A stretch of 46,016 bases of DNA, taken from contig JADLEQ010000090.1 in the NCBI GenBank assembly GCA_020846005.1, positions 1 through 46,016 of the forward strand, in the 5' to 3' direction. Within the stretch, counting starts at the first letter, position 1, and each line of letters opens with the position of its first letter. This document shows, one piece after another, positions 1 to 2,863 of the stretch. Both the position numbers and the translations under genes were made by a program. Source of the stretch: Polyangiaceae bacterium (GTDB lineage Bacteria > Myxococcota_A > Polyangia > Polyangiales > Polyangiaceae). The notes under the pieces are model-generated. The model saw only the letters and a program-made list of their open reading frames with translations. It was not told the DNA's origin and did no database searches.

Positions 1-152
1 GCACCGACGAGCTGGCCTCGAGAGCCCCTCCCGCCCGTGGGCAGGCAGCGGATGGCGTGGCCGTCCGTCAGCTCGTAGGGATCTCCCGAGCTGAGCTGTT
101 TGGCCCAGAACGGGCCGCGCCCCGTGCCGCTAGACGCCGAACCGTCGCTCAT
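1..152 (-). CDS. N-terminal part of an unidentified protein (runs off the window)
   Basis: An ATG at 152-150 opens a frame that stays open to the window edge, giving about 50 residues. The start reads MSDGSASSGTG, followed by PFWAKQLSSGDPYELTDGHA and a Gly/Arg stretch. The third-position GC is high, which supports coding. The wording (a 'GDPYEL-DGHAI' phrase) reminds me of the N-termini of myxobacterial Uma2-type (PD-(D/E)XK nuclease-fold) proteins, but the catalytic part would lie outside the window, so this is only a suggestion. The gene is divergent from the viperin gene, with about 215 bp between the two starts. Confidence 0.45.
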   Translation of the reverse strand, partial: MSDGSASSGTGRGPFWAKQLSSGDPYELTDGHAIRCLPTGGRGSRGQLVG

Positions 153-353: not shown

Positions 354-360
354 AAGGAGG
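354..360 (+). promoter_or_regulatory. Shine-Dalgarno site that fixes the viperin start
   Basis: AAGGAGG is a near-perfect anti-SD match, seven bases before the GTG at 368. It decides in favour of GTG-368 over the longer open frame from 194, whose extra 58 residues are Arg/Ser-rich and unlike any viperin N-terminus. Confidence 0.75.
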
Positions 361-367
361 ATCTCCA

Positions 368-1402
368 GTGAGCGCCACCATCCGGAACCAGCAGGGCAGC
401 GACCCACTTCTCGACTCGGAGGGCCCGGGCGCGCGCGCGCTCGGCCCGCGCCGCGACTCGGTCGCCGCGGGCGGAGTCGGGGGGCCCGGCGACGTCGCGC
501 TCGCCGCGGTGAACTTCCACATCCTCAGCGCGTGCGACGCCCGCTGCGACTTCTGCTTCGCCACGTTCCCCGGCGTGCGCGGCCGCCTCGCGGCGCCTGA
601 CGCGCGCCGCCTGATCACGCTCCTGCGCGCGCACGGCGCCGAGAAGCTCACCTTCGCCGGCGGCGAGCCCACGCTGCACCCGGATCTCGAGGGGTACCTG
701 CGTCACGCGAAGGGTGAGGGCCTCGTCACCGGCGTCGTCACGAACGGGTCGCGGCTGCAGCCGCTCCTCGCGCGCGCAGCGGACGCGATCGACTGGGTGG
801 CGCTGTCCGTCGACTCCGCCAGCGAGGCCACGCAGCGGGCCCTGGGCCGCGGCGGCGGGGACCACGTCGCCCGCGCCGTCCGGCTCTCCGATCTGTGCCG
901 CGCCGCGGGTGTACGCCTGAAGGTGAACACCGTCGTCACGTCCCTCACCTGGGAGGAGGACCTGACGGAGCTCCTGCGCCGCCTCGCGCCCGAGCGGTGG
1001 AAGCTCTTCCAGGTGCTCCGCGTCGAGGGCCAGAACGACGGGCGCGTCGAGCGGCTGCTCATCTCGCGCGAGCAGTTCTCGGCCTTCGTGGCCCGCCACG
1101 CGCGGCTGGCGGAGGCGGGCGTGACGCTCGTGCCGGAGGACAACGACGCGATCACCGACTCCTACGTCATGATCGATCCGCTCGGCCGCCTCTACGGCGA
1201 CACGGGTGGCATACATCGCGTGGGGCCCTCCGTCCTCGAGGCCGGGGTCGACGCGGCGCTCGCGGCGGTCGGCTTCCAGCCCGAGAAGCTGCGCGCCCGC
1301 GGCGGGCTGTACGACTGGGCGCCGCCGCGCCGCCACCTCCCGATCCTCGCCGGCCGCCCGACTCGACCGCCGCGCGCGGGGGGCGGCTACCCGCCGGGGT
1401 AG
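368..1402 (+). CDS. Prokaryotic viperin homologue (radical SAM ddh-nucleotide synthase)
   Basis: The protein has 344 residues from GTG-368. Viperins are radical-SAM enzymes that dehydrate a ribonucleoside triphosphate to a 3'-deoxy-3',4'-didehydro-NTP, a chain terminator for viral polymerases. Visible features: the [4Fe-4S] motif CDARCDFCF (C56, C60, C63); GGEPTLHP at 98-105 (the SAM-contact GGE); KVNTVV at 185-190; PERWKLFQ at 208-215; EGQND at 220-224; and VPEDND...DSYVMIDPLGR (255-274). Near the end comes RGGLYDW (311-317), the counterpart of the RGGKYIW of animal viperin. As I recall from animal viperin, K185, N187, R210, K212 and Y266 match CTP-binding positions. The N-terminal 40 residues are low-complexity, with no amphipathic helix. 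No adjacent nucleotide kinase, a frequent partner of bacterial viperins, is seen. The last 16 bp overlap the 3' end of the convergent glycohydrolase gene. Family assignment is strong; which NTP is used cannot be read from the sequence. Confidence 0.93.
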   Translation: MSATIRNQQGSDPLLDSEGPGARALGPRRDSVAAGGVGGPGDVALAAVNFHILSACDARCDFCFATFPGVRGRLAAPDARRLITLLRAHGAEKLTFAGGEPTLHPDLEGYLRHAKGEGLVTGVVTNGSRLQPLLARAADAIDWVALSVDSASEATQRALGRGGGDHVARAVRLSDLCRAAGVRLKVNTVVTSLTWEEDLTELLRRLAPERWKLFQVLRVEGQNDGRVERLLISREQFSAFVARHARLAEAGVTLVPEDNDAITDSYVMIDPLGRLYGDTGGIHRVGPSVLEAGVDAALAAVGFQPEKLRARGGLYDWAPPRRHLPILAGRPTRPPRAGGGYPPG

Positions 1403-2466
1403 CGCTCCCGGTGGGCGCTGGCGTCGAACGCCCCGGCGCGGAGCGCGGCGAGGTCGGCCGCGAGGGTCTCGATCACGTCGCGGAGCTCGACGCGCGCGAG
1501 CCAACGCTCGGGGATCGCGGCGAGGCCCAGCGTGAGGCCGAGGAGCTGGCCGGTCATGCTGCCGGTGGAGTCGCTGTCGCCGCTGTGGTTCACCGCGAGG
1601 AGGACGCCGTGCTCGAACGAGCGGGCGACGAGCGCGCAGTACACCGCGATCGCCAGCGCCTCTTCGGCGACCCAGCCGCCGCCGAGGGACTCCACCGCGG
1701 CCGGCGCGGGGGCCACGTCGCCTCTCGCGAGCGCCACCGAGGCGTCGAGGGCGCGGAGCGTCTCCCCCGACGCCGGGCGCTCGGCGATGAACGCGCGCGT
1801 CCTCGCGATCGCCTCGGCCAGCGGGAGGCGGCGCTGGAGGTGGGCGATGAGCATCGCGAACGCCCCGCCGGCGACGATGCCCGTCGGGTGACCGTGCGTC
1901 ACCGCCGACGCCTCCGCTCCGAGCTCGTAGGCCAGCCGCTCGCTCGCCGCCACGAGCCCGATCGGCGCGACCCGCATGACGGTGCCGCACCCCTTGCTGT
2001 CGTTCCGCGCCGGCTCTCCGAAGGACCGCGTCGCCGCGCCGAGGGCGGACAGGCACGTCACGCCGGGGCCGCGCCGGCTGGAGAGCCGCGCCTCACGCAC
2101 GAGCCAGCCATCCGGCCACTCGGGGCCCTCGGTCCCCACCGCGCGCGGCCTCGAGCCCTGCGTGAAGTACCAGCGGAGGTAGGCGTGATGGATCGCGCTC
2201 CCCGGAGCGGCGGGCTCCCGGTGGGCGCCGCGCGCGACCGCTCGCAGGAGGCCCTCCGCGGTGAACAACGTCATCTGCGTGTCATCGGTGATGGCGCCCT
2301 CGCGCCCGTACGCCTCGGCGAAGTCCCTGACGCCCGCCGGCCCGAAGCGCGCCTGGATCCGCGCCAGGTCGTCGAACTCGATGGGCGCGCCGAGCGCGTC
2401 CCCGACGGCGCCGCCGAGCAAGCACCCTCGGACGCGATCTGCCTCTTCTCGCTGCACCGACCCCAT
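1387..2466 (-). CDS. ADP-ribosylglycohydrolase family protein (DraG/ARH fold)
   Basis: The protein has 359 residues from ATG-2466. This family removes ADP-ribose from proteins or small molecules using two Mg2+ ions. The metal-binding motifs are intact: GAVGDALGAPIEF (19-31), TDDTQMT (60-66), HGHPTGI (191-197) and NHSGDSDSTG (293-302), so an active enzyme is expected. The frame is also open upstream of ATG-2466 for about 96 codons, but the fold clearly begins at EADRVRGCLLGG, so the short start is preferred. The gene is convergent with, and overlaps, the viperin gene. That could mean a shared defence role or simple crowding; such glycohydrolases are also ordinary housekeeping genes in myxobacteria. 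Confidence 0.88.
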   Translation of the reverse strand: MGSVQREEADRVRGCLLGGAVGDALGAPIEFDDLARIQARFGPAGVRDFAEAYGREGAITDDTQMTLFTAEGLLRAVARGAHREPAAPGSAIHHAYLRWYFTQGSRPRAVGTEGPEWPDGWLVREARLSSRRGPGVTCLSALGAATRSFGEPARNDSKGCGTVMRVAPIGLVAASERLAYELGAEASAVTHGHPTGIVAGGAFAMLIAHLQRRLPLAEAIARTRAFIAERPASGETLRALDASVALARGDVAPAPAAVESLGGGWVAEEALAIAVYCALVARSFEHGVLLAVNHSGDSDSTGSMTGQLLGLTLGLAAIPERWLARVELRDVIETLAADLAALRAGAFDASAHRERYPGG

Positions 2467-2863
2467 GCGCCCAACCTCGCACGCAACGCCGCCGCGCGCC
2501 ATCGGCGCGGGCGCGGCGCGCAGGCGCCCGGCGAGCTCGGCGGCGCCAGCGGCGCGCTCATGGCCGGCGAGGGGGTCGGCGTCCCCCGTGCGGTCGTTCC
2601 GGCGCGCGGCGGTGGAGCCGAGCTCCCCGAGCCGCCCAGCCGTCCGGAGCTGCGCCGAGACGAGGGCGCCGAGCGCCGCCCACGACGGCCGGGGAGGTGC
2701 CGCACCTCCGCGCTCGGGGGCGGGGGTGTCCGCCGGCGCCCGGCCGATGCCCAAGGCGCCGGCCCGGGCCCGACGGAGCAGCGGCTCGGCGCGCGAGCCC
2801 CGCCGGCTCCCCCGGCATCGCGTCGAGGACCTCCGCGACCGTCACGCGCCGCCAATCTGGCAT
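2467..2863 (-). pseudogene. Possible frameshifted coding stretch upstream of the glycohydrolase
   Basis: An ATG at 2863 opens MPDWRRVTVAEVLDAMPGEP, which reads like protein and has G/C at almost every third position for about 25 codons. The third-position pattern then moves to another frame, which runs without a stop straight into the glycohydrolase frame (through PSWAALGALVSAQL and AARRNDRTGDADPLAGHERA). Either a small gene has suffered a frameshift (real or a sequencing error), or this is a degraded N-terminal extension of the glycohydrolase. No domain is recognised. It fills the otherwise gene-free 2467-2899 interval. Confidence 0.3.

Follow-up and report, generated by a model that had tools for sequence, protein, structure and literature searches.

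A bacterial viperin of an already described defence-enzyme family at the end of a Polyangiaceae contig

Bacterial viperins make ddhCTP, ddhUTP and ddhGTP (PMC10732462), and for the animal enzyme, roles past antiviral activity have been argued (PMC9642334). The gene studied here lies at positions 368–1402 of a window of 46,016 nucleotides, which is the whole stretch of DNA that we analysed. We found that it encodes a genuine bacterial viperin (a prokaryotic viperin, or pVip), belonging to a defence-enzyme family that is already described and automatically annotated. A prokaryotic viperin homologue had been proposed at this position in an earlier note, and profiles, tree and predicted structure all support that proposal. 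The open reading frame, its coordinates and the motifs on which the proposal was built (CDARCDFCF, KVNTVV, PERWKLFQ, EGQND, DSYVMIDPLGR and RGGLYDW) were likewise confirmed.

The gene, its ends and its neighbours

Because the window is the entire contig and the pVip gene starts 367 bp from the contig end, only those 367 bp exist upstream. The features of the locus are as follows.

3–152, reverse strand: the initial 50 codons of a Uma2/DUF4351-like ORF that runs divergently and is truncated where the contig ends; a neighbour, outside the system
354–360, forward strand: Shine-Dalgarno-like AAGGAGG, 7 nt 5' of the GTG start
368–1402, forward strand: pVip gene, 344 aa, predicted viperin-family radical-SAM nucleotide dehydratase (profiles, tree, structure)
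368–505, forward strand: N-terminal extension, residues 1–46, of low complexity (pLDDT below 50 for residues 1–40)
506–1324, forward strand: catalytic core, residues 47–319 (profiles, fold comparison)
533–556, forward strand: predicted [4Fe-4S]-binding CxxxCxxC radical-SAM motif, with C56, C60 and C63 corresponding to mouse C84, C88 and C91 (alignment)
1325–1399, forward strand: C-terminal tail of the pVip
1387–2754, reverse strand: convergent ADP-ribosylglycohydrolase gene, a neighbour (PF03747, 9.7e-71), whose end at 1387 overlaps the final 16 nt of the pVip gene, stop codon counted

The start codon of the pVip gene is the GTG at 368. GC content by codon position is 0.77/0.50/0.96 in the core, a strong third-position bias, and 0.85/0.63/0.93 in the 46-codon extension, which thus shows coding periodicity; the stretch from 194 to 367, ahead of the GTG, has values of 0.71/0.76/0.76 and no such periodicity. 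Because the third-position bias is seen in the extension and not in 194–367, a start at 368 agrees with the data, and translation probably includes the extension. A start at 194 was rejected for the lack of coding periodicity up to 367, and one at 509 was rejected because it falls within the core and has no ribosome-binding site. We found neither a sigma-70-like promoter nor a terminator around the gene, a result that is weakly informative in a genome of 75% GC.

Both ends of the protein had been described as unusual. The low-complexity N-terminus is probably real, and near relatives begin only a few residues ahead of the core, but the extension is disordered in the model. The tail past YDW (RRHLPIL, which then runs into the convergent gene) resembles the shorter RR-x-L tails of near relatives, namely RRRLPVLRSA in the copy from genome G019 and RRRLHL in that from G147. 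Neither the extension nor the tail indicates a new function. We consider it very doubtful that the 46-residue extension serves in localisation or partner binding; its position, though not its sequence, is comparable to that of the N-terminus that anchors animal viperin to membranes.

The divergent ORF, which starts at 152, encodes the N-terminus of a Uma2/DUF4351-like protein (the Pfam Uma2 match on a homologue is under the gathering score); two paralogous matches to it occur at other places in the genome. With a divergent gene upstream and a convergent gene downstream, no same-strand gene adjoins the pVip gene. The ADP-ribosylglycohydrolase was rejected as a partner because none of the 26 other viperin loci that we examined contains a homologue. 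No other recognised defence gene was found within the window's first 20 kb, where one weak BrxP match falls in a PAPS-reductase-domain protein. At the opposite end of the contig (44803–46014, reverse strand) lies another radical-SAM gene, which includes a SPASM domain.

Family identity, predicted fold and active site

The 368–1402 protein scored 246.5 bits against NCBIfam NF038283, an equivalog model with a cut-off of 180 bits, and so passed the curated profile of the family. PADLOC pVip models matched at up to 4.8e-73, the top model being that for "viperins not associated with kinases". Eukaryotic viperins matched in phmmer at about 1e-42 to 1e-48, and the closest PDB sequences are the solved viperins of mouse, sea anemone and Trichoderma. 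The earlier note expected the gene to be hidden under a generic radical-SAM annotation. This is not the case, because NCBI's own model names the family and would call the protein a "viperin family antiviral radical SAM protein", the label already carried by 13 of the 14 records of plasmid relatives.

An AlphaFold model built on an alignment of 32 window and locus sequences had a mean pLDDT of 85.2, with values above 90 almost throughout the core. Its top Foldseek match is CTP-bound mouse viperin. When aligned to that structure (6q2p) with VIA-align, the model gave a Z score of 37.5 and an rmsd of 1.6 over 276 residues spanning 42–322, while the best non-viperin, SuiB, reached Z 22.5, and PqqE, MoaA and NifB scored 20.3, 18.7 and 17.7. 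The predicted structure therefore has the viperin fold, including its C-terminal part, and most of the suggested comparison with CTP-bound viperin is answered.

To judge residue conservation, we used an alignment of 39 prokaryotic and two eukaryotic viperins. Every residue at columns conserved to at least 95% is present in the 368–1402 protein, among them those corresponding to mouse N77, H79, C84, C88, C91, R194, K220, N222, K247, E293 and Y302, and the equivalents of K120 and S301 are present as well. K120, R194, K220, N222, K247, Y302 and others are the residues that we take to contact the NTP (CTP) in mouse viperin, and the expectation that the NTP site is conserved was borne out. At columns conserved to at least 85% among the 39 prokaryotic viperins, the only departures are N57D, which adjoins the first cysteine, and L275, which replaces F.

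Relatives, spread and the association with kinases

The tree placed the protein among the bacterial viperins, as anticipated, and separated it from three further radical-SAM proteins encoded by its own genome. These three served as the outgroup (MoaA, NifB and PqqE were compared by profile and fold, outside the tree), and because their branches are very long, the root is weakly placed. The window copy belongs to a weakly resolved group with G019 and G147 (same family), G198 (same order), and G167 and G334 (elsewhere in the phylum). Five other same-family copies (G004, G033, G368, G395 and G397) fall in another clade, and the kinase fusion G376 in a third. By identity, the nearest relative is the G019 pVip, at 62%.

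The set of relatives was taken from genome searches, after a single-sequence contig scan had returned only two, both cyanobacterial. Copies above the cut-off were found in 32 of the 379 sampled genomes of the phylum; most sampled genomes of the family have none, and the only same-genus genome in the sample, which is 90% complete, also lacks one. A phage collection yielded no viperin relative at 1e-15. The patchy distribution, together with the scattering of same-family copies over separate clades, suits a horizontally exchanged defence gene, and the pVip appears to have come into the phylum more than once.

No nucleotide kinase is fused to the protein, and none was found near the gene within the window, where the upstream side is limited to 367 bp. 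The earlier note was thus right about the missing kinase, though not in calling it unusual. When the window was considered together with 20 wider loci from the phylum, two (G167 and G334) had a kinase beside the pVip, a count that covers kinases related to the queries used and that a remote kinase could escape. Seven further copies in the phylum are fused to a nucleotide kinase. With two adjacent and seven fused, the kinase-less state is that of the majority in our sample, and it is one for which PADLOC has a model. The fused copies (L041, L044, L046 and L063, and L058, L066 and L067) carry C-terminal kinases of two kinds, one having an ISGVSGAGKD-like P-loop and the other an IEGLDGSGKS-like one, and the two kinds occupy different regions of the tree.

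Proposed function and comparison with described viperins

We consider it highly probable that the protein is a SAM-dependent nucleotide dehydratase, a stand-alone prokaryotic viperin giving a ddh-NTP and acting against phage; we infer the chemistry, the NTP used and the anti-phage role from the studied family. The [4Fe-4S] cluster held by the CxxxCxxC motif would cleave SAM to a 5'-deoxyadenosyl radical, which would abstract the 4'-hydrogen of a ribonucleoside triphosphate. Water would then be lost at C3', leaving a 3'-deoxy-3',4'-didehydro (ddh) NTP that may stop or disturb phage RNA synthesis. Because the gene is stand-alone, its substrate would have to be maintained as the NTP by housekeeping nucleotide kinases.

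An enzyme of the viperin family with intact chemistry could instead have a present role that is metabolic or regulatory, as the non-antiviral roles argued for the animal enzyme might suggest (PMC9642334). The gene stands alone among ordinary genes (those for the ADP-ribosylglycohydrolase, an acyl-CoA dehydrogenase and a PhoD phosphatase), and its base composition is host-like, with a GC3 of 0.96 in the core, which means that the window copy has either resided in its genome for longer or was acquired from a genome of similar composition. However, a housekeeping enzyme would not be expected to be missing from a genome of the same genus and from most of the family, and relatives of the gene adjoin kinases or candidate defence genes, or sit on plasmids. 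We therefore regard a metabolic or regulatory role as unlikely.

It is less likely still that a kinase or another partner lies beyond the contig end, so that the system is not truly stand-alone. The contig does begin shortly ahead of the gene, but what opens upstream is the divergent ORF, which leaves no same-strand gene directly upstream. Moreover, a search of the whole genome with PDC-M51B, a viperin-associated kinase family, returned only a partial match (3e-6), of a kind also obtained in 12 of 14 control genomes. Membership of another radical-SAM family that merely resembles viperin (MoaA, NifB, PqqE, BlsE or a peptide maturase) can be dismissed as exceedingly improbable, because the common radical-SAM domain and the weaker matches to MoaA (7e-16) and BlsE (3e-13) stand against a viperin profile score about four times that of MoaA, no SPASM domain detected in the domain search, a Z gap of about 15 to the best non-viperin over the whole-length fold, and the conserved NTP site.

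The protein is a further well-supported pVip from a phylum in which the family is patchy, and it helps to map how stand-alone, kinase-beside and kinase-fused forms co-occur; knowledge of viperins as such is unchanged by it. With mouse viperin (RSAD2) it shares the fold and the radical-SAM and NTP-site residues at 37% identity, and mouse K319 is replaced by His, as in most pVips sampled. The cyanobacterial plasmid pVips of Nostoc, Sphaerospermopsis and Anabaena are about 52% identical to it, with the same catalytic residues in the two that were aligned, but unlike the window copy they have a deoxynucleoside/thymidylate-type kinase directly upstream. The viperin ORF on the Anabaena cylindrica plasmid (L071:3983–4735) ends early, with homology stopping well short of the usual C-terminus, and may be truncated.

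The G019 pVip (L011/L076) is like the window copy in having no kinase found beside it and in its short RR-x-L tail. It differs in its surroundings, where GC3 is mostly 0.70–0.85 over roughly 10 kb and 0.87–0.96 in the genes on either side, whereas the window copy is host-like. Within L076:3331–13806, its neighbours include a protein kinase, a sigma-54 activator and a protein matching PDC-M28C, a candidate defence family in PADLOC, at 3.2e-116, and directly after it on the same strand is a 293-aa ORF (L076:9164–10045) with no Pfam or PADLOC match. Compared with the prokaryotic viperins at large, as represented by NF038283 and the kinase-less PADLOC model, the protein is alike in its whole core, near-invariant residues, fold and patchy distribution, and it differs in its low-complexity N-terminal extension and longer tail, both of which lie beyond the core.
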